This document shows, one piece after another, positions 11,640-63,257 of a stretch of DNA of 64,000 nucleotides. The translations under genes and the position numbers were made by a program. Under the pieces are notes generated by a model that saw only the letters and a list, made by a program, of their open reading frames with translations, was not told the DNA's origin and did no database searches. Positions within the stretch are counted from its first letter, which is position 1. Every line of letters begins with the position of its first letter. This DNA is from Nymphaea colorata. Lineage: Eukaryota > Streptophyta > Magnoliopsida > Nymphaeales > Nymphaeaceae. The stretch lies in assembly GCF_008831285.2 (NCBI RefSeq), contig NC_045144.1, positions 16,824,590-16,888,589 on the forward strand, given 5' to 3'.

Positions 11640-13730
11640 GGATTTACGTGTATGATGAAGGACAAGGGATACACTTCATGATCTTGAAGAGGAAACTTTC
11701 TACCATTGTTTTTTCTTGGAAAGTTTTTAAAACAGGTAAAGTCGTAGCATATAAAGACATATGAACAGGTGCTAACACCTTCACGTACATGCAAAACAAT
11801 CATAACTAGACCATGCTCCTTCTTTATCTCAGCCTCTTTTCTGTACCAATTTCTTCGTACTGGTGTTTGGTAGTAAGAAGCACAATACTCCTATTTAAAT
11901 CTGGTTAGGTCTAATGGATCTCTAAATTTTTTGTTTCCAAATTTTTTCACTCGTCTTCTTATATAGAGTGGAATATTTCTTAGGGTGTACCTCTAGCTAC
12001 CAGAACCCTAGTTTCGTAAAGCACAAGATTTATCTAGAGCAAAGGCATTATTATCTACCCTAAACCGAGCTCCTACCTAATTACTTTCTATTATTTAGTT
12101 TCAACAGAGAAAGAATATATTTGGTATTTTGATTTTGCGTGAGTAGAAGTATTTCATCTGATTGCTTACAGGAGAGCTTATACTCTCATCCAACTCATTT
12201 TTCCTCCAAGATATAGGATTGACTTTGATGTCTTGGCATGCCACCCCCACCATGCTTCAATTTGTGTGCAAGTAGCTCGTCTTTTATAGCACAAGGGGTT
12301 GAGTACACCTGAAGGATTCAAAAGGAAAACTTGCTGCCTACCAGCTTCCATCCCAACTATTGCGACCTGCTCACGGAACGGTGGTTGATTATCATCTCAA
12401 ACTCATTAGTCATGTTAAATCGAAAAGAAATTAGAGTTGATAATTAAACTTAAGTCCATTAATCAAGGATACATAATCTTATAATTAATGCTCGTGCTGC
12501 AGTAAGAACTTGAATTAAGTTCCGTATTTGCTAAATTAGAATACAAATCTAATTAATCCTAAGAAGATTATGGGTACTGCTTTCTCAATTGTATGACCGG
12601 GCACTGCTCGCTTCTGAGTCTCCGTTCATCTTTTTTTTTTTTTCAAAATTTCTCAATACGTCTACTTCTTTCTGAATTTTCTGATAAATTAACCTTTTAG
12701 AGCCACCACCGAGAAATTGAAGGCACATCATGATGTTATGATGTTAACATGAGAAGGCATGTTCCCACGTTTTAATAGCATTGACATTTTGATAATTCTA
12801 TAGGGGCGAACTTTTTCACATTCCAGTTTTGCGGTCATGAAGAGAGGGGTCCTCCATTTAACTTGCAGGAGCATTTTAGTTTTTTTATCTCATCATCTCT
12901 TAGGGACCATAACATATAACCTGTTTTTCCTTAAAATAGAAAAGTTAAAGGTGAAACTAATTTCTTTACAGCACAGTAAAAGCAAAATGTCCTTAAAAAA
13001 CTTTTTCCTGAAACAAAATTCAATCAACACAGATCTTCCTGCCCAAACCATAAGATTGACATAAAAATAATTTTCTAGAGTTACCCTGACATCTGAAGCT
13101 TGGATTGTTGAGAGAAAAGCAAAGGTGGAAACCAAATTAGATGTGATGAAAATGTTCATTACTTTTTTTTTCCTTGTTATTCTTTTTTGATCCATCATGT
13201 TGGATCGATCGGTCCTGATTACATTGTTAGATAACTTTGAAAAGGTAAAATCACCATTCAATTTTTCTCTCTCTATATATAATTTTGAATCATGAATCTA
13301 GAGATAACATACATGTAGGAACATCTACATCAAATCTAAACCGAGTAATCTAAGATGGGACGGTCCAAATTTTTCTCCTTCATCCCTCCCTCTTCCACGT
13401 GCTGCAAAGGGGAGCCACCGAGGCTCCTCCTTTTGCTCTACCCGCCTGTGACGGCAGGGGAGGAGCTGCCGGGCTCCTTCTTTTGCAAGACGAGAGAGAG
13501 AATGAGAGGGAAAAGGGAGGGCCATCTAGATTGTAAATCTGATGGCCTAGATTTGATGTTCTTAGATGACTAGATTGAGGCAAGAAATCAAGAACTAAAA
13601 TGCTCTTGTGCTTGATAAAAGGGACGACTAGATCTCCCTTTTGCAAAAATAAAAAATAAAAATATGCGATTTCTGAAAATGATGTCTAAATCACCTGGGC
13701 TTTTTTCCAAGCCTGTGTGTTTTTAGGCAG
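11640..13730. repeat. X8-unit upstream block (copy 2) and unique DNA
   Basis: 11640-12600 matches the upstream blocks at 60-330, 20640-21200 and 62105-62600, for example 'gaaggacaagggatacacttc' and 'tataTAGAGTGGAATATT'-type words. From 12600 to 13730 I see no gene. Overlapping reading frames at 12837-13261 and 13325-13646 lack recognisable domains and occur on both strands of the same low-complexity DNA. Confidence 0.45.
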
Positions 13731-20345: not shown

Positions 20346-21336
20346 CGGTTCTCCTTAATAAAACATTGAAAAAAAAAATCAGTTTGAAAATCAATGAGAA
20401 TGCTTGAAAATTATCTTTTAAAAATAAAACGCCGTTGATTTAAAAAAAGATTATCAAAATACTCAAAGCAGTACGTAGTTAAAACGGACATTATTGCTGT
20501 TCTACAATCGGCCGTCAAACTGGTTCAAATTGAAGCCAATTCAGGCGGTTAGTGTATAAATATACGTAGCGACTTCCCCAAGATACGTATTTTCAAGGCA
20601 AGGTGAGTTTTATAAGGAACCAAAGTTTTCCCAGTAGAAGATATGGTGTCTGTGAGCATATATGGTCATGAACAAGGTATGTTCTGCGTGCACAATCCCA
20701 AGGAGAAAGATTTCAAGCATTCTTTTATTGAAAGATATATTAAAACAGGCCAAGTGGTTACTTATAAAGACAAATGAATAGGCGATCCAGGTACGAGCGA
20801 ATCTATTCATCACTAGAGCATTCTCCTTCCAACATAGGATTTTGTCTGTCTAATTTTTTTTTTATATTATTTTATGCAAGTAACATAATAATATATTCAC
20901 CTTATTTGAGATTTAGTTCTTTTGAAGCAGGTTAGATATAGTTTCTGCCGATTTTTCTTGCTTGTCCTCTTATGTAGAGTGGAATATTAGGTCCGTGCCT
21001 TAGGCTAATAATCACTCCAAACTTTTGAAGCTCAAAATTCTAACTCCAGCATGCATTGGCACTACAGGCCACCCTAAACTAACCAAACTCTTCCTGACTC
21101 TATAGGGAAAGAATATGATTTTGGATATTATCCGGTGCCTTGATTATACTCTGAAACTCATTAGTCTGGTTAATTTGATCCGAAATTAGAGCCCAATTAG
21201 TCATCAAACTTTAGTCTGTTAATGAACGATCTTCTTACTGGTTCCAATCCCAATCTGATTCCTGGGGCATGTGGAAACTCCAGCTTGGCAGTGTATTGTT
21301 TATATAGGAATCCAAATCTAATTCCAAAAACACTAA
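20345..21336. repeat. X8-unit upstream block (copy 3)
   Basis: Aligns by eye over about 950 bp with 61800-62720 at the right end of the window. Shared words include 'cagtttgaaaatcaatgagaat', 'gcagtacgtagttaaaac', 'gcataTATGGTCATGAACAAGG' and 'ggatattatccggtgccttgat'. No gene supported. The block is interrupted at about 21336 by the gene-carrying insertion and resumes at 23354. Confidence 0.7.
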
Positions 21337-21597
21337 TAAGTCGTTTGATGGCCAAAAAAACACGCGGAACAGGACACACTTGTTTTATTTAGTTGAGTTT
21401 TCATTTGGACACAGTAAACAGAACGGACGCCTGGACAAAGGTATAAATTACTTCCTGTCTTAAACTTAGACTGTTCCGAGCTCGGAACAGGCTAGCACCA
21501 TCTCCTGCCCCGAGAACCCACCCCGGACCTCCTGAGTTGCCCTCTTGTCGAGCTCCTTCTCCCCCTTCTGAGTCTCCCTCTCGCCCCCGCGGAAGAA

Positions 21598-22015
21598 ATG
21601 GCGGCGAGAGCCAGAGGAGGAGGGGGAGGTAGGGTTGTTGAAATGCTGGCGAGGAGGAGCCAGGAGGCGAGCCCCGAGAGGATGATGGTCTGGACGGAGC
21701 AAAGGGCGCCGAGGCAGGAGCGCAGGGTTCTGGTGCTTTACTACCTCTGCAAGAACGGTCAGCTCGAGCATCTGCATTTCATGGAGGTTCCTCTGTATTC
21801 TGTCGAGGGGCTGTGCCTCAGAGGTGAGATTCTCCGAGAGCCTTCCGTCGTCCTTCCTATGCGCTGTTCGTTTCCGTGTTTTTCTCGTTTGTTTTTGTTG
21901 CTTTCGTTTCTTCCCGCTTCCTGAAATCGATCCTGGTTGTTCTTGTCCTTGCAGATGTGACGAGCCATCTAAACTTCCTCAGGGGAAAACGAATCACTTC
22001 TATGTACTCCAAGCG
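21598..22015 (+). pseudogene. SOSEKI (DUF966) N-terminal fragment, two exons
   Basis: Exon 21598-21823 and exon 21955-22015, with a GT..AG intron retained between them. They encode the start of a SOSEKI protein: a Gly/Arg-rich N-terminus, then the DIX-like domain (RRVLVLYYLCKNGQLEH, HFMEVPLYSVEGL, LNFLRGKRITSMYSKR). Full SOSEKI proteins run several hundred residues and act as polymerising polarity proteins at cell edges. Here only about 95 codons remain and the domain stops before its usual WHDL segment. The SMYSWS motif usual before SKR lacks WS. It sits inside the 2.0 kb transposon-like insertion, so it is a captured fragment rather than a native gene. The frame is open across both exons. 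Confidence 0.75.
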
Positions 22016-22435
22016 GTATGGATCGTCCATTTTCCCCTTTCTTCATCTTACTTTTTTTGCTTCTTTGTTTCCTTCTTCATCTTACTTTTTTTTGCTGAAG
22101 TTACTGTGTCTTACTCAACTTTAGCTCTGAATTTACTATTTTTTGTCGTATTTATTATACTTAGCATTTTTAGACTTTTCTTTACAGTTGCTTTGTTGAT
22201 CATTGTGTATCTTCTGATTCTTAGTCTGAACCATGTTTCTTTTTTTCAAATTTTAAGTTTTTATCCTTTAATGATTTAATTTTTCTAGAAAAGGGTGCAA
22301 ACATTTCTTACGAGTTTCGTATCTCTTTCCTTGAACAGCCGCAATTCCTGCCTACTTCATCATTGCTGACAAGACAATCCTATAGTGTGCATGGAGAAAT
22401 ACTCAGGCAAATTTTAACAATTCTTTGATTTCTAG

Positions 22436-22748
22436 CCACTCCACGCACTTGGCTTACTCTGTTTCGTCTGTTGATTTTCCCCATAGTGGTGGAGCTCATT
22501 TAGGTGGATATAGCTTCAATAATGCTGCTTACCAACAGCATCCAATGACCATGATGAACATCAATAGGTCGAACCAGAACCAGAACCAGATGCTGAATGA
22601 GAGATACATGCAGATGATGTACAACAGGTCTTCTCTCACCCCACTTGCTACCACTTCCTACTACAACTATCAGCCACAATCACAGACAGCAGAGTATGCT
22701 ACCTATTTGTTCAGTGATGATAACACCAGCAGTTGTGCCATCATGTGA
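22436..22748 (+). pseudogene. HIPP C-terminal fragment with CaaX box
   Basis: An open frame of about 103 codons that reads as the C-terminal low-complexity tail of a heavy-metal-associated isoprenylated plant protein: MTMMNINRSNQNQNQMLNE, then YMQMMYNRS, then EYATYLFSDDNTSSCAIM. The last four residues, CAIM, form a farnesylation (CaaX) motif. The N-terminal HMA metal-binding domains are absent. The AG acceptor at 22434-22435 puts this exon in frame with the upstream SOSEKI exon (5' part 287 nt, this part 313 nt, total 600 nt). No ATG starts the fragment itself, so alone it is not a gene. A/G-rich 3' UTR-like DNA follows. Confidence 0.7.
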
Positions 22749-23075
22749 AGGGGAATGAAAAAAAAAGAAAAACAAAGAAATAAACATGATGTCTTTGTCT
22801 ACCGTGTTTAGAATGTAGGAGATAAGGCCTTATTAAGTGTTTCCCCTTTTTTTTTTTTATTTCAGTCCTTTGTTGAATGATCTACGGTGTTCTCGTTGGT
22901 TGCACAACATCTTGTTCGGCATAAGAGGATATGGTTCTGGCCGAATGTGTTGGAACGATATAGTTGGATGTTGCTGTAACAATGATGTGTTGCTGTAACA
23001 ATGATGTATCATGGACTAAGCTCTGTAATAAACTTCTTGCTGCTGGTTTTGTTTATGAAAATGGGATTTGCTTAT

Positions 23076-23078
<3 letters not shown>

Positions 23079-23103
<25 letters not shown>
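23079..23103. repeat. (GA)n microsatellite
   Basis: About 25 bp of GA repeats inside the Pack-type insertion, 3' of the HIPP fragment. Confidence 0.9.
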
Positions 23104-23106
<3 letters not shown>

Positions 23107-23517
23107 AAAACAAAATTGACTATAAAAAAACACAAACATTGGACAAAACAAAAACAGACACCGAAATGAACCGACAGAACGGATAAAACAAACATTTGCG
23201 AAACAAACGCTGGACAAGAGGAACTTAGTGTTTTGTTTCTAAAATCATCAAACGTTGGACAAAGAGCACCATTATCCATGAGGACATGACAGTAGTCTCA
23301 TGGACAGGATGTCCTATCCGTCGTGTCTCAATAAACAACAATCAAACGACCTTTAAGAGTACGAAGTTTCTCAATGATTAGGTGTGAGTGAGAAAAGTAT
23401 TTTATCTTAGGTGAAAGAGTTGAATCTCATTAGTGGAACCGGTAATAATAACATCTAATTCAATTAGGTTGCATTTGATGGCCTTTGATCTATATAATGA
23501 TTGAAAAACTTAGAAAT

Positions 23518-26360: not shown

Positions 26361-27230
26361 ATGGCCAGCATTCAAACTGGAGCTGCTCAAGGAGACGAAA
26401 ATTCGAGAGGATTAAAATCATCTGATCAACATGACAATACATTAAAAATCACATCTACTCTCCTCAACGGCGCAAATTATTTAAGTTGGGCCAGGGCTGC
26501 ACGTTTATTTTTGAGTGGGAGATCTAAAGCAGGATACATCAACAGAAAAATCCTCTGAGTGGGAGATCTAAGGCAAGATACATCAACAGAAAAATCCAGC
26601 AGCCTGCATCTAATGATCCTAGGTACGAGGAATGGGAGTCGGAAAATGATATGGTCATGTCCTGGTTAATAAATTCTATGGAACCGTCTATAGCTAACAT
26701 GTTCATGTATCAAGAAACGGCCCAAGGCATTTGGGAGTCGCTGAAAGAACTCTTCAGCGAGCAAAATAATCTTGCTCGTATATATCAAATTAAATGTGAG
26801 ATTGCTAATCTCACTGTGGGAAACAAAGATATTCAACTTTATATCGAGCGTCTTCACAGTCTCTTCGATGAACTTCTTCAATACCGACCGGCCACATCGG
26901 ATCCCGATATCTTCAAGCAACGGTTCGAGGAAGATAAAATTTTCAAAGTGTTAGCTGGTCTCACGGACGACTTTGAAACCTTGCGCAGTCAAATCTTGAA
27001 CTCTTCTCCTTTTCCAACATTCAACACTGTCTGCCAAATCATTCAAAGAGAAGTATCTAGGCGAAGAGTCATGAATTCATCCCACAAAGATGAAGTTGCA
27101 GGTTAAAACTCTGAGAAAATGGTGTATGTTTCTCGCACCCAAGATGGACAGAGACGTGGACGCAACAATATGAGACCACGCAGCAAGATGAAGTACACTC
27201 ATTGCAAAAAGATCGGTCACACCCGTGAAC
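26361..27230 (+). pseudogene. Copia gag (UBN2-type) with zinc knuckle, broken
   Basis: Begins MASIQTGAAQGDE at 26361 and includes the LNGANYLSWARAARLFLSG motif typical of copia gag N-termini. A 44 bp tandem duplication (second copy from about 26556) shifts the frame and stops it at 26558. The frame continues from about 26580 (WESENDMVMSWLINSMEP, GIWESLKELFSEQNNLARIY, FEEDKIFKVLAGL) to a TAA at 27104-27106. It then reads to a degenerate CCHC knuckle, YTHCKKIGHTRERC (about 27190-27231), whose first Cys is Tyr. The protein cannot be made as one chain, and nucleic-acid binding would be impaired. Confidence 0.85.
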
Positions 27231-27231
27231 G

Positions 27232-28010
27232 ATGCGTGAACGATACTGGGAGATCATAGGGAGACCCGAGAAAGAGAAACCAACCACATTTTTGAAGGAG
27301 ATCAATTTGGCAAATTTGGTTAAAAAAGACGATTTGGAAAATTTTTTTCAAAGGTTCTCCAAGACCAATCTCGTCTCATCTCAACCTGTCAATGAAAGCT
27401 CTGAAGGTAAGACGATGACTTTTCTTTCTATGACCAAAAATAATACTTGGATTATTGACTCCGGAGCAACCGATCACATGACTAGTGAATCATCTACACT
27501 TAGTGAATTTGTCAAAGATTATAAACAGTCTGTATTCACTGCTGATGGGTCTTCCATAAACGTTGAAGGTGCTGGAAAAATGACGTTTTTAGGAAATAAA
27601 AAATCTACAGTTCTCCTTATTCCAAAACTTGCTGCAAATTTAATTTCAGTTAGTAAGATTACTCAAGCTCACAATTGTTTGGCATTTTTTTCTCCCAAGG
27701 ACGTGACGTTTCAGGAACTAAACTCGAAGAAAGTGATTGGTAAGGGTCATCTCCAAAGAGGATTATATGTTCTAGACGATGATTGTGTTAGCCTTCTCAC
27801 CAACAGCCAACAAAACTCTGAGTACCGGATATGGCATTCAAGATTGGGGCATATTTCAAATCGAAGCATCAAACAACTTATTCCTCACCTCACCACAGAA
27901 GATTGGGCATGTGACGCGTGTAAGTTCTCAAAATTCACTAGACTTCCTTTCCAATCATCTGTAGAAAGATCTTTAGAAATGTTTGATCTTATACACTCGG
28001 ATGTATGGGG
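27232..28010 (+). pseudogene. Copia protease and N-terminal integrase, frame-shifted from neighbours
   Basis: Starts right at an 11 bp tandem duplication (CGTGAACGATG / CGTGAACGATA, about 27225-27246) that separates it from gag. It encodes the aspartic protease motif WIIDSGATDHMT. Then comes the GAG-pre-integrase HHCC zinc finger (WHSRLGHIS..WACDACKFSK) and the first catalytic Asp of integrase in LIHSDVWG. A one-base loss at about 28006-28012 shifts it against the downstream pol frame. Family function: polyprotein processing and integration. Confidence 0.85.
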
Positions 28011-30560
28011 CCGGCTCCTGAGATATCTCATACCAGATATAGATATTATGTTTCTTTTATTGATGATATGACTCGTGTAACTTGGATTTATTTCCTCAAG
28101 AATAAAGGTGAGGTACCAAATATATTTGAAGAGTTCTATAATCTCATTTATACTCAGTACGAAATCAAGATAAAGAAACTTCGTTCCGATAATAGTGGAG
28201 AGTATGTTAATGACCATCTTAAAGAGTTTATGCGAAAAAAAGACATACAACCCCAATACACGTGTGCTAGAACCCCTCAACAAAATGGTGTTGTAGAGAG
28301 GAAAAATCATCAACGTCTAAACATCGCTCGTGCTCTCATGATACACATGACTGTACCACAAAAATATTGGAATGAAGCTATTGGTACCGACTGCTATATA
28401 TCCAATCGGATTCCTAATTCTAGCATTGATGGAAAGGTACCTCTTGAACTCCTCCTCAAACGGTTGATCTCCGTTAGACATCTCAAAGTCTTCGGGTGCA
28501 AGTGTTATGTCCATGTGCAGGAAAAAAACAGAAATAAATTTCAGAAATGTGTAGTTAAAGGGATTTTTATGGGATATTCCAGCAAAAAACATAGCTACCG
28601 ATGTCTTGATCCCATTACAAACAAGATGATAGTCTCACGAGATGTAAAGTTTTACGAGTCTGAAAGATACTTTGAAAATATACAACAAGATGAGAATTCT
28701 TCTCAGCCCGCCAATGAAATGAGCAATATCTCTTGCCCATTGACTGATATCTTTAATCAAGTACCTCACCGGCAAATCAATGAGGTAAACCAGCCCTTGC
28801 AAATTCAAGAAGTGACTGGTGAAAGAGGAAATCAAACTCCTACCTTAGACGACACTACTGTTCCTCAAGTCAAACATTCTTCTCGTCAATGCAGGCCTCC
28901 GGTCAGGTTAAGTGATTACTATACCTATCTTGCCACTGACAATATTCATTCTATTGAAAAGTATTTATCTTTTGACGGATTCTCAGAGCAGTATAAATCT
29001 TATGTTCATGCAACCTACAAACTCCAAGAGCCGAAAAAATTTGAAGAAGCCTGCAAAGATGTCAAATGGATAGATGCCATGAAAGAGGAACTTAAAGCTC
29101 ATGAAAAAAATCGTACGTGGGAATTTGTCCCTTGTCTAGAGAAAAAAAAATTGGTTGGATGCAAATGGATTTACAAAATTAAATTCAAAAGCAATGGAGA
29201 AGTAAAACGATACAAAGCGCGACTTGCTACAAAGGAATTCACTCAGACTGAGGGTATTGACTACACAGAGACTTTTGCCCCGATAGCAAAAATGAATACG
29301 GTAAGGGCTCTTCTTGCCATTGCTTCCATAAAACGATGGAGTCTCTTGCAACTTGACGTTAAAAACGCCTTTCTCCATGGCGAATTGAGCGAAGAAGTAT
29401 TCATGCATGTCCCAGAAGGCGTCACAAGTAAACCTGATCACGTGTGTAGACTAAAAAAGACTTTGTATGGTCTCAAACAATCGCCTCGCACGTGGTTCTC
29501 TCGTCTTAGCCTTGCTCTCAACAAGTATGGGTTCAAACAAAGTACAGCAGACTATACTATGTTCACAGCCACTCGAAATGATAAGGTAACTATCCTACTC
29601 GTATATGTTGATGATATTATACTTAATCGAGATGATACCGAGTACATACATATGATAAAGAAGTATCTCAACAAAGAATTTGAAATCAAGGATTTGGGAA
29701 CTCTTCGATGCTTTCTTGGAATTGAAGTTGCTCACCCCGACAAAGGAGTTTTTATTTGTCAACGGAAATACATCATTGATCTTCTCAAAAAAACCGGTTA
29801 TCTAGGCTCAAAAGCTGTAGAAACGCCTCTTGAGACAAATTGCAAGCTGAAGAAAGAAGAAGGCAACATTGTCGAAAATATAGAAAGTTTTCAGAAACTC
29901 GTCGGCAAACTTATATATGTTACAGTCACTCGTGCAAATATAACATACGCAGTCAGCCTTATCAGCCAATTTATGAATAGACCAAGGTCTAGCCATGTCG
30001 AGACAGCACAGAGAATACTCAGATACTTAAAGGGTAGTCCAGGCAAGGGCATTTTGATGAAACGAAGTCCTTCCCTTACCATATCTGGGTACTGTGACGC
30101 CGATTGGGCTGGAGACCCTAACGACCGGAGATCAACATCAGGATACTGCACATTTATTGGGGAAAATCTTGTAACGTGGAAAAGCAAGAAACAAACTGTT
30201 GTGGCGCGGTCAAGTGCTGAAGCCGAATACAGAGCTATGGCAGTGTGCACATGTGAACTCATTTGGATCAAAGCTCTTCTCAAGGATATGAATTTGGATA
30301 TAAGGGAATCGATGGAACTGAAGTGCGATAACATGGCAGCTATTCATATTGGGGCAAATCCTGCATTCCACGAGCGAACCAAGCGTATTGAAGTCGACTG
30401 TCATTTTGTTCGGAAAAAAATTCAGGATCACACTATTTGTACTTCACATGTTAGAAGTGAGAAACAGTTGGCTGACGTCTTCACCAAGAGTCTGGGAAAA
30501 GAAAGGCATAAGTATATGATCGACAAGTTGGGACAGATTGATATTTGTCTACCAACTTGA
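28005..30560 (+). CDS. Copia integrase core, reverse transcriptase and RNase H (pol 3' part)
   Basis: Open for 851 codons. The integrase core completes a D..D-35-E triad: Asp62 in LRSDNSGEY and Glu98 in QQNGVVERK; the first Asp is in the frame upstream. The copia motif KVFGCKCYVHV follows. The reverse transcriptase starts near residue 373 (EFVPCLEKKKLVGCKWIYK), with Asp451 in QLDVKNAFLHG and the YVDD box at 534-537. RNase H has YCDADWAGDP with Asp698, and the chain ends shortly after ADVFTKSLG. No native start codon is needed, as it is normally part of a polyprotein. The enzymes look intact, but gag and protease are broken, so mobilisation would need another element in trans. Confidence 0.9.
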   Translation: MGPAPEISHTRYRYYVSFIDDMTRVTWIYFLKNKGEVPNIFEEFYNLIYTQYEIKIKKLRSDNSGEYVNDHLKEFMRKKDIQPQYTCARTPQQNGVVERKNHQRLNIARALMIHMTVPQKYWNEAIGTDCYISNRIPNSSIDGKVPLELLLKRLISVRHLKVFGCKCYVHVQEKNRNKFQKCVVKGIFMGYSSKKHSYRCLDPITNKMIVSRDVKFYESERYFENIQQDENSSQPANEMSNISCPLTDIFNQVPHRQINEVNQPLQIQEVTGERGNQTPTLDDTTVPQVKHSSRQCRPPVRLSDYYTYLATDNIHSIEKYLSFDGFSEQYKSYVHATYKLQEPKKFEEACKDVKWIDAMKEELKAHEKNRTWEFVPCLEKKKLVGCKWIYKIKFKSNGEVKRYKARLATKEFTQTEGIDYTETFAPIAKMNTVRALLAIASIKRWSLLQLDVKNAFLHGELSEEVFMHVPEGVTSKPDHVCRLKKTLYGLKQSPRTWFSRLSLALNKYGFKQSTADYTMFTATRNDKVTILLVYVDDIILNRDDTEYIHMIKKYLNKEFEIKDLGTLRCFLGIEVAHPDKGVFICQRKYIIDLLKKTGYLGSKAVETPLETNCKLKKEEGNIVENIESFQKLVGKLIYVTVTRANITYAVSLISQFMNRPRSSHVETAQRILRYLKGSPGKGILMKRSPSLTISGYCDADWAGDPNDRRSTSGYCTFIGENLVTWKSKKQTVVARSSAEAEYRAMAVCTCELIWIKALLKDMNLDIRESMELKCDNMAAIHIGANPAFHERTKRIEVDCHFVRKKIQDHTICTSHVRSEKQLADVFTKSLGKERHKYMIDKLGQIDICLPT

Positions 30561-35181: not shown

Positions 35182-35348
35182 TGTAATCACCCCAAATTTT
35201 TCTAAAAGATTATGATGTTTTATTAACTACGAAACCCAAATTTAGGCACAAGATTCAAATCCAAAATACAACTCTTAGATCCAAATTAAATCCAAAATAC
35301 TACTTTCAGATCCAAAACCCAAGTTCAGATCCAAATCGATCATTTAAG

Positions 35349-35772
35349 ACCCATTTGCCCCTTCTTTTGACAAAAATCTCATTTTAGATGGTGATTTTAG
35401 TCTTTTTGGGTGGACATGACCCATTTGTCCTTTCTTTTGACAAAAAGTCTCATTTTAGAGGGTGATTTTAATCTTCTTTGGTGGACAAGACCAATTTGCC
35501 CTTTCTTTTGACAAAAATCTCCTTTTAGAAGGTGATTTTAGTCTTTTTGGGTGGACAAGACCAATTTGTCCTTTTTTTTTTACAAAAATCTCCTTTTAGA
35601 AGGTGATTTTAGTCTTTTTGGGTGGACAAGACCAATTTGTCCTTTTTTTTACAAAAAAATTCTCCTTTTAGAGGGTGATTTTAGTCTTTTTGGGGTGGAC
35701 AAGACCAATTTGCCCTTCTTTTTTGACAAAAAATCTCCTTTTAGAGAGTGATTTTAGTCTTTTTAGGTCAAA
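35349..35772. repeat. Six tandem ~70 bp repeats inside the nested element
   Basis: Units start GACCAATTTG(C/T)CC and run through a T-run, ACAAAAATCTCCTTTTAGA, GGTGATTTTAGTC and TTTTTGGGTGGACAA. Copies at about 35349, 35418, 35489, 35558, 35629 and 35701; the last two thirds are most alike. The short plus-strand frame across them is a by-product of the repeat. Confidence 0.9.
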
Positions 35773-38300: not shown

Positions 38301-38577
38301 AGCTCTTGGGTTGATTACCCCCGGTAAAGGCACCAAGAACGGTCGACCCTCGTACCGATGGGGCGAGTCCCTTTCTTTCCTATTTCAAAACAAAAAACTC
38401 ATTTTTCTAGAGCACTCCAAAACCAACCAAAAATTTTGGGGATGCAAACATGCTGCGACTACGAGTGATATTGTTGAGTTTTGTGTTGTTGATCAGCCCC
38501 TTGCCTGATTGATTAATTATAAGTTCGACGCCCTTTTGTGTTTTCAAACTGTTGCAACATTGTTTTGGTGCCCCTGC

Positions 38578-39260
38578 TGTGTTCATTATGGCTGAGATTA
38601 GCAAACCAGATGATGACAATGACTATAAAGGAATTGGAAATCCCTCCTCCTTTGGATCTACAACCATAGTTAACATTGACAGATTTGAGTATGAACAGTT
38701 TTTGACACAAAAAGCCTCACAGGCTTCAGCTTCCACTGCTTTGATTGATCGAGCTCTCTCTACGAGTATATCCACGCTTGATTCAGGTATCTCTTGGATT
38801 ATTGAATCAGGAGCATCGAGACATTTTTGCAGTAGACCTGATTTGTTCACTACGTTGCATAGATTCTCTCAGCCACGTCATGTCAAAATTGTAGATGGTA
38901 GAATGTCACCTATATTGCATTATGGAGATGTGAAGCTTTCTCAGTGTATAACCATTCTACATGTCTTATATGCTCTTGAATTTCCATCACATTTGCTCTT
39001 TGTTAAATAGTTGACTATTGATTTACACTGTCACAATTATTTTTGACCCTGGTGCATGCTCATTTCAGGACTTACAAACTGTGAAGACTATTGGTGGTGA
39101 CTATGAAAAAGGGGGTGTCTACATCCTGTCGAACCCTATGGGTCTTGTTGCTAGCTCTTCTACATCGAATTCTACACCATTTCAGTGGCATCTCAGGCTC
39201 GGTCATCCTTCAGGGTCCAAACTCTGTTCTATCCTACCTCACCTTTCAGTCCCATAGTCA
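38578..39260 (+). pseudogene. Second copia: protease and pre-integrase fragments
   Basis: The protease motif WIIESGASRHFCS (about 38795-38833) lies in a frame open 38552-39010. A second frame, 39018-39257, has DLQTVKTIGG and WHLRLGHPSG, the start of the HHCC zinc finger. The second zinc-finger half and the integrase start lie in other frames (about 39260-39460). Several frameshifts; no gag precedes it. Confidence 0.75.
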
Positions 39261-39494
39261 TTTCAGTGTGAGGCCTGTCAACTTGGCAAACATACTCGTA
39301 GTAGTTTTCCTTCGAGTCTTAGTCCTTCAAGTCAAGGGTTGTTTGATCTTCTTCATCTTGATGTGTGGGGTCCTAGCAGGGTCGCTAGCCGATCTAAGTT
39401 TAGGTATTTTCTGGTTGTTGTTGATGATTACTCTCGAGTTAGTTGGGTATTTCTTTTGAAATAAAGGTATGAAGTAATACTTATTCTCAAAAAC

Positions 39495-39945
39495 TTGATT
39501 ATTAAAATAAAAACTCAGTTTGGTTCTCTGGTCAAGTGTATTCGCACTGATAATGCTATTGAGTTCAAATCATCTATCTTAATGACCTTTTATGCTGAAA
39601 ATGGTATCTCTCCCCAATTTATATGTCTTCATACCTCACAACAGAATGGAGTTGTCGAACGAAAACATAGGCAACTTCTAACTGTTGCTCGTACCTTAAT
39701 GCTTCATAGTCATGTACCTGCATACTTATGGGGTGATGCCATACTCATGGCTTGTTACCTAACAAACCGTTTGCCGTCATCCTCCATTGACAACAAAATT
39801 ACCGATTAAAATTGTTTATCCCAATCGAAGCTTATTTCCCGTTGCACCAAAAGTATTTGGCTTTACCTGTTTTGTTCACATCCTTGGGCCTAAACGTGAT
39901 AAACTTGCTGCTCAAGTCATTAAGTGTTTTGTGTCCTTGTCTCTT
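39495..39945 (+). pseudogene. Second copia: integrase core fragment
   Basis: IRTDNAIEFKS and QQNGVVERKHRQLL give the second Asp and the Glu of the integrase triad, followed by LTNRLPSSSI. After a frameshift, VFGFTCFVHILGPKRDKL continues. The sequence stops at IKC, just before the motif that normally follows, where X8 intron DNA starts. Confidence 0.8.
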
Positions 39946-43819: not shown

Positions 43820-44290
43820 CTAAGCGTAGCCACACATGCCATATAGGCAGGAGGACCCCTTACGGCACTTGTTCATGCATCTCCCACAGTTCTTTCTGTC
43901 GAACGCCAGATTCACGCACCTGCCCTTGCAGCACGTCTTAGTGAACCTGCACCTCCTCCCACATTTGCCGCAGTTGAGGCGATCGGTCTTCCGATCCACG
44001 CACTTCTTGTTGCAGCAGTCAGGGCCAGGGCTTCCCTTCAGTTTGCAGAACTTCCGGTTTTTGTCGCACCTCTGCGGCTTCCAGGATCTGGCCAGGTACC
44101 GGCGCAGTCCGAGCGACGGCAGGTCGCCAGAGTAAGGCTCCTCCTCGGCGGTGGGGTCCTCAATGCCGCCAACTACACCTTCCTCTGGTTCCTCGTGTTC
44201 TTCGGTTGCGGCTGGGAGTGTCGTGGATGCGACCAGCAAAATGAGAGCCCCGATGACTGCTGCTGTTAGGAGTAACCGTGGTACGGCCAT
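43820..44290 (-). CDS. STIG1-like cysteine-rich secreted protein A
   Basis: 156 aa, single exon. Residues 1 to about 30 form a signal peptide (MAVPRLLLTAAVIGALILL). An acidic linker (EEHEEPEEG) follows, then the basic segment RRYLARSW. Then comes a STIG1 domain with 16 cysteines: CDKNRKFC, PDCCNKKCVD, NCGKCGRRC, TCCKGRC, NCGRCMNKC and CLYGMCGYA. The terminal MCGYA matches the family's usual end. Known family members are secreted peptides of stigma and pollen tube that act through pollen receptor kinases (tomato STIG1), or in ROS-linked cell death (Arabidopsis GRI). The role here is inferred. A TATA box lies about 95 bp upstream. It looks intact and is probably the best functional copy of the array. 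Confidence 0.85.
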   Translation of the reverse strand: MAVPRLLLTAAVIGALILLVASTTLPAATEEHEEPEEGVVGGIEDPTAEEEPYSGDLPSLGLRRYLARSWKPQRCDKNRKFCKLKGSPGPDCCNKKCVDRKTDRLNCGKCGRRCRFTKTCCKGRCVNLAFDRKNCGRCMNKCRKGSSCLYGMCGYA

Positions 44291-47761: not shown

Positions 47762-48175
47762 TCACTTCCACAAAGCTTTGCATCCTTGATGATGACTATA
47801 CGGAGGGACGGAGTTACAAATTTTTTGTTGCAAAGGCTCGCACTTGTTCCCACACTTACCGCAGTTGAGGCTGTCAGTTTTGAGGTCCACGCACTTCTTC
47901 TCGCAACAGTGATCAGGGCCACCCTTTGTTGATGATCCGCAGATGCTTGGGTCCTTATCACACGTCAATTCTTTAGATTTAGCGAGAAACCGACGAATGG
48001 TAGGCACCGGTAGGCGGCCGGAGTCCGGCTTGCCGTCGCCGGCAGCTGAAGCTTCCTCAGCAGGCAGTTGATTGGGTTCATCTGCCTCATTTGGCAGCGG
48101 CGACGGCGCCAATGTTGTGATGATGATGAGAATGACTATGATGGAAAATGTTAGTAGTAACCTTGGTGTTGCCAT
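47762..48175 (-). pseudogene. STIG1-like protein B, C-terminal domain truncated
   Basis: Start chosen at MATPRLLLTFSIIV, homologous to the start of A. An in-frame ATG further upstream (48370) would precede the TATA-like box and was rejected. 137 aa. It has a signal peptide, a linker (PNEADEPNQLPAEE), RRFLAKS and the first half of the STIG1 domain: TCDKDPSIC, HCCEKKCVD, NCGKCGNKC. After that the frame reads CEPLQQKICNSV and ends at KALWK, so the TCCxGxC, NCGxCxxxC and CxYGMCGY parts are missing. It is the most diverged copy. It may be a decaying gene, or a shortened form still expressed; a pseudogene is more likely. Confidence 0.6.
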
Positions 48176-48301
48176 GGTTATAGCGGTGGCGGCGCCGGTG
48201 GCAGTTTCAGCCAAAGTGGTGGCCGTGATGCTGATAAGAGCTTCCAATGTATGAAGCAAATTAAGGTGGGCAGAGTGGGGAAGGAATGAGAATGGTGTTG
48301 G

Positions 48302-48309
48302 TTTATATA
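48302..48309 (-). promoter_or_regulatory. TATA-like box of STIG1-like gene B
   Basis: TATATAAA on the minus strand, about 130 bp upstream of the chosen start codon, in a 'gttggtttatata' context like genes A and C. Confidence 0.5.
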
Positions 48310-48379
48310 TGCAAGTGGAGGGATGCAGTGTTAATGGGGATGGCATTGGACTTACACTGGACTTGGACATGCATTGGTA

Positions 48380-53806: not shown

Positions 53807-54331
53807 TCAAGAAGTTGGTTCTTGCAGCAGTGCTTCGTAAACAACACAGCTGCAAGCACTAAGGGTATAGCCACACATGCCGTAGATACAGTAGGACCCC
53901 TTACGGCAATTGTTCCCGCATCTCCCGCAGTTCTCTCTATCGAACGCCAGATTCACGCACCTTCCCTTGCAGCACGTCTCCGTGAACCTGCACCTCCTCC
54001 CGCAGTTGCCGCAGTTGAAGCGATCGGTCTTCCAATCCACGCACTTCTTTTTGCAGCAGTCAGGGCCAGGGCTCCCCTTCAGTTTGCAGATCTTCGGTTT
54101 TTTGTCGCACGTATGCGGCTTCCAGGACCTGGCCAGGTACCGGCGGATTCTGAGCGACGGCAGGTCACCGGAGTAAGGCTCCACCTCGGCGGTAGGGTCC
54201 TCACTGGCACCAACTTCACCTTCTTCTGGTTCCTCGTGTTCTTCGGCTACTACTGGGAGTGTCGTGGATGCGACCAGCAAAATGAGAGCGCCGATGACTG
54301 CTGCTGTTTGGAGTAACCATGGTGCGGCCAT
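53807..54331 (-). CDS. STIG1-like cysteine-rich secreted protein C, extended C-terminus
   Basis: 174 aa, single exon, close paralog of A. Signal peptide MAAPWLLQTAAVIGALILL, acidic linker, RRYLARSW, then the 16-cysteine STIG1 domain (CDKKPKIC, PDCCKKKC, NCGNCGRRC, TCCKGRC, NCGRCGNNC, CIYGMCGY). At the position where A has its stop after GYA, C has two extra bases. It therefore reads on through former 3' UTR, adding about 20 residues with two more cysteines (LSACSCVV) before a stop at 53807. The first 155 residues look functional; the effect of the tail is unknown. TATA box as in A. Confidence 0.8.
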   Translation of the reverse strand: MAAPWLLQTAAVIGALILLVASTTLPVVAEEHEEPEEGEVGASEDPTAEVEPYSGDLPSLRIRRYLARSWKPHTCDKKPKICKLKGSPGPDCCKKKCVDWKTDRFNCGNCGRRCRFTETCCKGRCVNLAFDRENCGRCGNNCRKGSYCIYGMCGYTLSACSCVVYEALLQEPTS

Positions 54332-61800: not shown

Positions 61801-62872
61801 CGGTTCCTGAGTAAAACATTAAAAAAAAACGTCAGTTTGAAAATCAATGAGAATACGTGAAAATTATCTGTTAAAAAATAAAAACAGCATTGATTTAAAA
61901 AAGATTATCAAAATATTCAAAGCAGTACGTAGTTAAAACAGACATTATTACTGTTCTACAATCGGGCATCAAACTGGTTCGGTTGAAGCCAATTCAGTCG
62001 CTGATTCTGAAGACTGTAGCGCTTAGTGTATAAATATACGTAGGGACTTCCCCAAGATACATGTTTTCAAGGCAAGGTGAGTTTTATGAGGAACCAAAAG
62101 TTTCCTACTAGAACATTGGTCTCTGATCATATATGGTCATGAACAAGGTATGTTCTGCGTGCACAATCCCACAGAGAAATTTTTCAACCATTCTTTTACT
62201 GAAAGATAATTATTAAAACAGGTCAAGTGGTTACATATAAGGACATATGAATAGGTGATCCAGGTACGAGCAAATCTATTCATCAATAGGGCATTCTCCT
62301 TCCAAGATAGGATCCTTTCTGTCAATTTTTTTTTAAATTATTGTATGCGAGTAACATAATAATATATTCACCTTATTTGAGATTTAGTTCTTTTGAAGCT
62401 GGTTAGATATTGTTTCTGCCGATTTGTCTTCCTTGTCCTCTTATGTAGAGTGGAATATTATGTTCGTGCCTTTAGCTAATAATCACTCTTCCTGACTCTA
62501 CAGGTCAAAAATATGATTTTGGATATTATCCGGTGCCTTGATTATATTCTGAAAGAAATAAGCCTGGTTAATTTGATCAGGAATTAGTCATCAAACTTGA
62601 GTCCGTTAATGAATCATCTTCTTACTAGTTCCAATCCCTATCTGATTCCTGGGGCATTTGAAAACTCCAACTGCTGTGTATTGTTTATATAGGAATCCAA
62701 ATCAAATACCAGGAACGCTTGGAGTATGAAGTATCTCAATGATTGGATGTGAGTAGGAAAAGTATTCTATCGTACTTCTTGGTGAAAGAGTTGTATCTCA
62801 TTAGTAACGTATAATTCAGTAAGGTTGTGTTTGATAGCCTTAGATATACATAAAAAGGCGGTTGGATTTTTT

Positions 62873-62893
62873 GGGGGGGGGGGGGGGGGGGGG
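62873..62893. repeat. Poly-G tract (21 G)
   Basis: 21 consecutive G, followed by TGGGGTGG and more GG doublets. Able to form G-quadruplex on the plus strand. Its length may be affected by sequencing error. Confidence 0.9.
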
Positions 62894-63257
62894 TGGGGTG
62901 GTTGGTGGTGGCCTTAAATCGATTGATCTAAGACCCTGGAATTTTAGATCACTATGGATTTCAGTTCTGTGGCGAAACAATCACAACCTTATGATCCACT
63001 TTTATAAAAATCTAAGAATAGAATAAGAAACAAAGAAAATATCTTCTTATATATAGTTCAGAAATTGTGGATATCCAAGCTTTTGAATGTTCTTAAATTC
63101 ATAAACATTTTTTAAAGTCTTTTATGTTGATTCCACAGAGACAACGTGAGGCCAAGCAATTAATACTTTAATGGAGGGTGGGAAATGACTAAAATACCCT
63201 TGTTAGGATTAGGGCTTTCACCAGGAAAGTGAAATAATGATTAAAAAAATTGAAAAT

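Follow-up and report, generated by a model that had tools for sequence, protein, structure and literature searches.

A Pack-PIF-type element at a TAA site in Nymphaea colorata carries pieces of a SOSEKI and a HIPP gene, most likely as drifting passengers

The insertion, its ends, and the empty site

This work describes a transposable element in a 64,000-nt stretch of the Nymphaea colorata genome (contig NC_045144.1, positions 16,824,590 to 16,888,589 of the forward strand), referred to here as the window. The window also holds three STIG1-like frames (PF04885) on the minus strand (43820-44290, 47762-48370, and 53807-54331), a tandem array with a 71-bp unit in 5.9 copies (35346-35768), and Copia-type retrotransposon coding sequence (gag, RVT_2, and Pol_BBD) at 26651-30560 and 38552-39809. 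The element itself is an insertion of 2,017 bp that spans positions 21337-23353 and has a TAA target-site duplication (TSD) on either side (21334-21336 on the left and 23354-23356 on the right). Its left terminal inverted repeat (TIR) is TAAGTCGTTTGAT (21337-21349, plus strand), and its right TIR, reading inward on the minus strand, is AAGGTCGTTTGAT (23341-23353). The common form of the left repeat in the element family is GAGGTCGTTTGAT; the window copy lacks the initial G of this repeat at both ends, with T as the first base of one end and A as that of the other. Two plus-strand modules form the transposon ends: a left module (21337-21587), which resembles the left ends of copies on contigs C6, C13, and C4 and whose boundary with the adjoining SOSEKI sequence is approximate, and a right module (23103-23353).

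When the element and one TAA are removed, the flanks form an unbroken alignment to a paralogous empty site at 62480-62900 (plus strand), with the junction at approximately 62719-62722. A second paralogue without the insertion is present at 12379-12589 (plus strand); this match is weaker, with 64% identity, and extends just 19 bases past the site. To gauge the inverted ends, random end pairs were drawn from the window: a 10-base run in register was found in 22 of 400,000 pairs, and such a run together with a matching 3-bp flank was found in none of 400,000. When the window was scanned for inverted pairs of 10-mers located 200 to 6,000 bases apart and flanked by TAA or TTA, however, five rows were returned, this element among them, and the ends alone are therefore insufficient as proof. 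The empty site and the copies elsewhere in the genome do prove insertion. A TAA-flanked, transposon-like insertion of approximately 2 kb at 21337-23353, as originally predicted, is thus what the TSD, the inverted ends, the empty site, and the related genomic copies agree on, and the paralogous empty site that had been proposed near 62720 gives the clear boundary claimed for it, since the flanks rejoin through the junction once the element and one TAA are excised. The inverted ends TAAGTCGTTTGAT and AAGGTCGTTTGAT likewise stood; the second matching stretch reported alongside them did not, as 3,743 of 20,000 random pairs score equally high. For longer end stretches, local alignment gave nothing better than 200 shuffles.

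Two further sequence features were observed within the ends. A perfect 20-bp palindrome, CTGTTCCGAGCTCGGAACAG, lies at 21470-21489, towards the left of the element. In addition, the motif TGGACA occurs six times on a single strand across both ends (at 21406, 21432, 23140, 23211, 23256, and 23301), a count that was reached in none of 2,000 other stretches of equal length (two regions excluded).

Cargo of the window copy and its donor genes

Between its ends, the window copy carries three segments, all in plus orientation. The first is a SOSEKI segment (21592-22220) that matches a donor gene on C5 over a stretch starting approximately 6 bases upstream of the start codon and ending within intron 2, and that comprises the predicted coding part of exon 1 (21598-21823) and the predicted exon 2 (21955-22015), the latter with a 9-bp deletion common to the window, C6, C13, and C4. 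The captured piece retains its introns. It matches PF06136 (E value, 2.8e-18) over profile positions 1 to 51 of 89, as well as PDB entry 6rsn (E value, 2.6e-13), and these matches, along with the similarity to the C5 donor, bear out the original identification of SOSEKI exons 1 and 2 with their intron. A captured SOSEKI promoter was considered and rejected, since similarity to the donor starts only approximately 6 bases before the start codon.

The second segment (22234-22488), which we call X, holds the ATAG that serves as a predicted splice acceptor. X matches neither donor, and no clear conserved reading frame was found in it by eye; 11 places in the genome match it, the window included. 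X occurs at positions 1944-2622 of locus L017 (C2:27699443-27700121) and at 10 other places; it is found in several family elements as well as at sites that have no recognised family ends. The third segment (22486-23101) consists of the coding end and 3' untranslated region (UTR) of a HIPP gene. At the X-HIPP joint of the window lies a GTG that both sources share. A predicted third exon (22487-22748) continues the frame of SOSEKI exons 1 and 2 and encodes the HIPP tail, which terminates in CAIM. Alone, the HIPP piece gave no Pfam family above the cutoff, but it is 94% identical to the end of an intact C11 gene. Comparison with this gene shows that the window piece starts partway through a coding exon. 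The HIPP C-terminal part had therefore been called correctly, and its description as an exon had not: the piece starts mid-exon, and the predicted splice acceptor is located within X. Similarly, the capture of two unrelated genes stands, while the cargo count rises to three pieces, the third being X.

The donors were sought in the whole genome assembly (407.8 Mb, 783 contigs). A search for the SOSEKI domain returned 21 match rows. Twelve of these represent the first, middle, and last parts of four full loci (C6:1054k, C12:17989k, C5:3996k, and C4:24758k), and five loci are represented by the first part alone (the window, C6:22510k, C4:3091k, C13:15131k, and C12:4126.9k). The remaining four rows are copies with stop codons at C6:17679k and C6:17825k and last-part matches at C1:10854k and C4:25411k. 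Of these full loci, the C5 gene alone was also found by a DNA search with the element (86%). This gene has a complete DIX-like domain, with the first, middle, and last parts of PF06136, of which the captured piece covers positions 1 to 51 of 89. For the HIPP tail, seven matches were obtained: the window, C6, C12, C13, C14, a distant frame on C9 (53%), and the intact C11 gene (94%). The C11 gene encodes an HMA domain (PF00403; E value, 4.9e-14 with two exons joined) followed by the CAIM end, and the captured piece represents the tail only. The intact donors thus lie on separate contigs, SOSEKI on C5 and HIPP on C11, an outcome in favour of the original prediction, which adjacent fragments in the same order at a donor locus would have refuted. 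SOSEKI and HIPP sequences do adjoin on C12; there, however, they are oppositely oriented, and the adjacency is accounted for by insertion of a family element carrying HIPP into a SOSEKI copy.

Classification of the element family

The original prediction called for a search for other elements with the same ends, and many were found. With the right end (23138-23353) as the query, 294 candidates were obtained from the genome; the best 40 of the 294 were scored, and all 40 match, the window and C6 included. Ten loci were taken from the right-end matches (L019 to L028), and seven were extended upstream (L034 to L040). A left end was found in six of the seven extended loci (not in L036) and, with weaker similarity, in L020 and L021. 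In a table of flanks for 12 loci, identical TAA or TTA trinucleotides were found on both sides at the exact register in eight (L034, L035, L037, L039, L040, L020, L021, and L010), and unequal flanks in four (L038, L009, L014, and L015). The C6 copy reads CTT/TTA, L038 reads CCT/TTA, and the C12 copy (L014) reads CTT/TTA, which becomes TTA/TTA with a one-base shift; for the C14 copy, the left terminus was not located in this table. One member, the element in L035 (positions 6638-9732 of C11:4355600-4365500), has the same ends as the window family and contains a stretch that looked like a P450 (F5H) piece, an assignment that Pfam and PDB searches did not support.

One family member that informs classification is L037, a 7.3-kb element on C9 with a TAA TSD. 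It encodes a Myb/SANT-like piece (PF12776; E value, 1.8e-10) and, in separate frames, two pieces of DDE_Tnp_4 (PF13359; E values, 1.3e-5 and 1.4e-17), and because of these coding pieces we assign the family to PIF/Harbinger. The TIR motif described for PIF/Harbinger elements is G(N)5GTT (PMC2213677). The window copy has GTT at TIR positions 7 to 9 and lacks the first G of the motif, and 9 of the 12 tabulated left ends begin with GAGG, fitting the motif, as does the common family form. The identified modules fill nearly all of the 2,017 bp, and therefore no space is left for a transposase. Judged by its sequence, the window element is non-autonomous, with host gene sequence inside and no transposase, and can be classed as a Pack-PIF.

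Two other origins for the locus were weighed, and we assign a negligible probability to each. The element could belong to another superfamily, such as CACTA, hAT, or Mutator; the left flank does chance to read CACTAA, and a CACTA identity was considered on this basis and rejected, as the empty-site alignment places the CACT in the flanking sequence. The 3-bp TAA/TTA TSD, the GTT at positions 7 to 9 as in the PIF/Harbinger motif (PMC2213677), and the DDE_Tnp_4 and Myb/SANT pieces in a family member all speak against another superfamily and make it hardly credible. Alternatively, the gene pieces could have been copied jointly in a segmental duplication and have come to lie beside transposon ends by accident. 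The captured SOSEKI piece keeps its introns and is therefore of DNA origin, as such a duplication would have it; the exact TSD and empty site, the location of the donors on different contigs, and the same-ended copies on several other contigs (e.g., the C13 element, with TAA/TAA) render a segmental origin extremely improbable. The reading that we regard as very probable is that of an element of the Pack-PIF type, inserted at a TAA in one of several paralogous stretches of the window, whose cargo was assembled stepwise inside the family and now drifts as a passenger.

Relatives carrying cargo and the proposed order of assembly

Several relatives carry some or all of the same pieces. The copy on C6 has the left end, SOSEKI, X, HIPP, and the right end in the same order as the window. 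The C13 element (L010) is 3,581 bp long, is flanked by TAA/TAA, and contains SOSEKI, a short piece of X, approximately 1.4 kb of pentatricopeptide-type (PPR) sequence (PF13041; E value, 3.1e-54), and the HIPP tail. A single frame runs from its PPR part into the HIPP tail and comprises 528 amino acids from a TTG or 537 from stop to stop. At positions 2336-3922 of L010 (minus strand, C13), PPR repeats and an E motif were observed to run into the HIPP tail, with CAIV followed by further residues. The C4 copy has a left end, a SOSEKI piece split by 3.4 kb, and a partial X; no right end was found within L011 or the following 9.9 kb (L031). On C1, a left end is followed by X, and a right end is absent from 9.9 kb (L032). 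The copies on C12 and C14 contain both X and HIPP; each has a right end and, with less similarity, a left end, neither has SOSEKI in the same orientation, and stop codons are present in both HIPP pieces. In the C12 copy, approximately 1.1 kb between the left end and X lies beyond the recognised modules. This family element with HIPP (approximately 1579-4342 of L014, C12:4125500-4132000) lies inside exon 1 of a SOSEKI copy, in opposite orientation; with the element removed, its flanks align to the C5 gene over 550 bp at 72%.

Comparison of junctions and derived changes among these copies bears on the order in which the pieces were joined. Relative to the C5 donor, the four captured SOSEKI copies (window, C6, C13, and C4) have in common a P-to-L change, an S-to-Y change, and the 9-bp deletion, and the SOSEKI-X junction is identical in all four. 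The fifth SOSEKI fragment, on C12, is without the P-to-L change and without the 9-bp deletion, and is for this reason considered a separate copy. C12 and C14 have a common X-HIPP junction, at which X stops at its position 464 in both; the window and C6 have a common, shorter X-HIPP joint. These shared junctions and derived changes indicate that the pieces were joined stepwise and that the composite was copied or moved later.

The model that we propose runs as follows. The ends were probably mobilised in trans by the transposase of longer related elements. X would have been joined to the end of the HIPP gene, and the first two SOSEKI exons to X; a deletion with 3 bp of microhomology would then have placed X against the HIPP tail, and the composite would have moved to give the window and C6 copies. 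The joining mechanism may have involved the outermost ends of adjacent insertions, accompanied by repair and by exchange among copies. We infer the order of these joins and the direction of some of the steps.

Movement as a unit with its cargo fits the identical order on C6, but the flanks of that copy (CTT/TTA) are unequal and its modules differ unevenly from those of the window. Between the two copies, differences number 56 of 223 positions in the left end, 52 of 887 in SOSEKI plus X, 3 of 252 in the HIPP coding part, 42 of 329 in the HIPP 3' UTR, and 26 of 242 in the right end. Both the contrast between HIPP coding and SOSEKI plus X (P = 0.0012) and that between the left end and SOSEKI plus X (P = 5.5e-15) are significant. 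Because divergence is uneven among modules, the window and C6 copies are not regarded as simple sisters, and exchange between copies is assumed; exchange or gene conversion would be the simplest reading of these sequence differences.

Coding potential of the composite

The structure of the cargo raises the question of whether the element carries a working chimeric gene, in which a SOSEKI head-contact fragment fused to a farnesylation-type HIPP tail would cap SOSEKI polymers at membranes. Predicted splicing yields three exons with one 182-amino-acid frame; a TATAAA is present at 21442, no ATG occurs in 21440-21597, and AATAAA signals are present at 22779 and 23027. The C6 copy is also in frame across the joint (199 amino acids), and the CAIM end fits a farnesylation motif (PMC12609287). 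Head and tail contact residues have been named for SOK4 (PMC7042713), and in an alignment to SOK4 the fragment retains H34, H36, and F37. Against a working gene, the fragment covers only positions 1 to 51 of the 89 in the domain profile and so may not fold, the tail-side residues F81, W83, Y84, and D85 fall outside it, and D33 and P35 are replaced by E and L, respectively. The reading frame fares poorly in the relatives as well: the CaaX motif of C6 has been lost through a 10-bp deletion, exon 1 of C13 has a 1-bp deletion (frameshift), and the C4 copy is interrupted by a 3.4-kb insertion. In-frame joining, moreover, has a 1-in-3 chance.

The pattern of substitutions bears on both sides. For the SOSEKI exons, dN/dS is below 1 in 9 of 10 copy pairs, ranging from 0.19 to 0.61; the exception is the window versus the donor, with 4 synonymous and 14 nonsynonymous changes (dN/dS, 1.05; P = 1.0). 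A synonymous excess that is significant when taken singly was found in four of the 10 pairs, three of them with the C4 copy, including window versus C4 (P = 0.006), and the fourth being C6 versus C13 (P = 0.04). No significant excess was found for the window against the donor, C6, or C13 (P = 1.0, 0.38, and 0.19, respectively), and between the window and C6 the SOSEKI exons (17 differences in 287 positions) are about as divergent as the introns (23 in 340; Fisher P = 0.74). Of the exon changes private to C4, 13 of 17 are C-to-T or G-to-A. We read the synonymous excess as reflecting decay of GC-rich sites more than selection, with past constraint during part of the history being possible. The low HIPP divergence had suggested purifying selection on the frame; this explanation was dropped, given that all three window-C6 HIPP differences are nonsynonymous and that SOSEKI exons and introns are similar. 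We thus consider a working chimeric gene very unlikely; a capping protein is imaginable from the sequence, though not likely. Still bolder, and in our estimation highly improbable, would be a view of the whole family as an exon-shuffling line that repeatedly fuses host exons (SOSEKI and PPR) in frame to a farnesylation-type tail, with the SOSEKI-HIPP protein of the window being expressed and capping SOSEKI polarity polymers while bound to membranes. The cargo most likely represents a drifting passenger.

Comparison with known systems

Gene-carrying transposons are already known, and a Pack-PIF with multigene cargo is of a known type. Gene fusions that add a prenylation motif have also been described (PMC12609287). 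Among the papers listed in a literature search on SOSEKI or HIPP together with Pack elements, none joined the two subjects, which does not prove absence, and the HIPP tail letters did not occur in the papers listed in a literature search for them. How TIR transposons capture unlinked gene pieces is described as unsettled in a 2026 review, according to which an undiscovered mechanism may exist (PMC13317346).

The MtPH elements of Medicago (PMC2213677) resemble the window family in having TIRs such as GGGTCCGTTTGGTTC, with GTT at positions 7 to 9, and a 3-bp TAA/TTA TSD; the passages on MtPH differ in that they deal not with gene capture but with elements that bear a transposase and with copies descended from these. 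In soybean, Tgm-Express1 (PMC1947982) is likewise a TIR element with unrelated host gene fragments, five in that case; unlike the window element, it is a CACTA transposon, and chimeric spliced transcripts were demonstrated there, whereas the splice product of the window is predicted. Also close in kind is the Zm-Pack-PIF 18 cluster of maize, which has non-autonomous PIF/Harbinger ends, a TAA/TTA TSD, and pieces of host genes (PMC8903248); within its subgroup B1, one element combines fragments from two genes, of 163 and 58 bp (PMC8903248). The two-gene case in maize (PMC8903248) and the five-fragment case in soybean (PMC1947982) weaken the earlier suggestion that dual capture is uncommon.

The value of the present family lies in an unusually full record within one genome, which includes the donors, the partial assemblies (X plus HIPP and SOSEKI plus X), and the composite, present twice, and which also spans the PPR addition, the nested C12 case, and a transposase-bearing relative. 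Since the join order and break-point sequences are readable, the family should be useful for testing models of capture, though the end product looks non-functional. Compared with Zm-Pack-PIF 18 as described in maize (PMC8903248), the pieces in the window are larger, with approximately 630 bp of SOSEKI including introns and approximately 616 bp of HIPP; the window adds a third segment, one relative adds PPR sequence, and the donors and partial assemblies can be matched individually.
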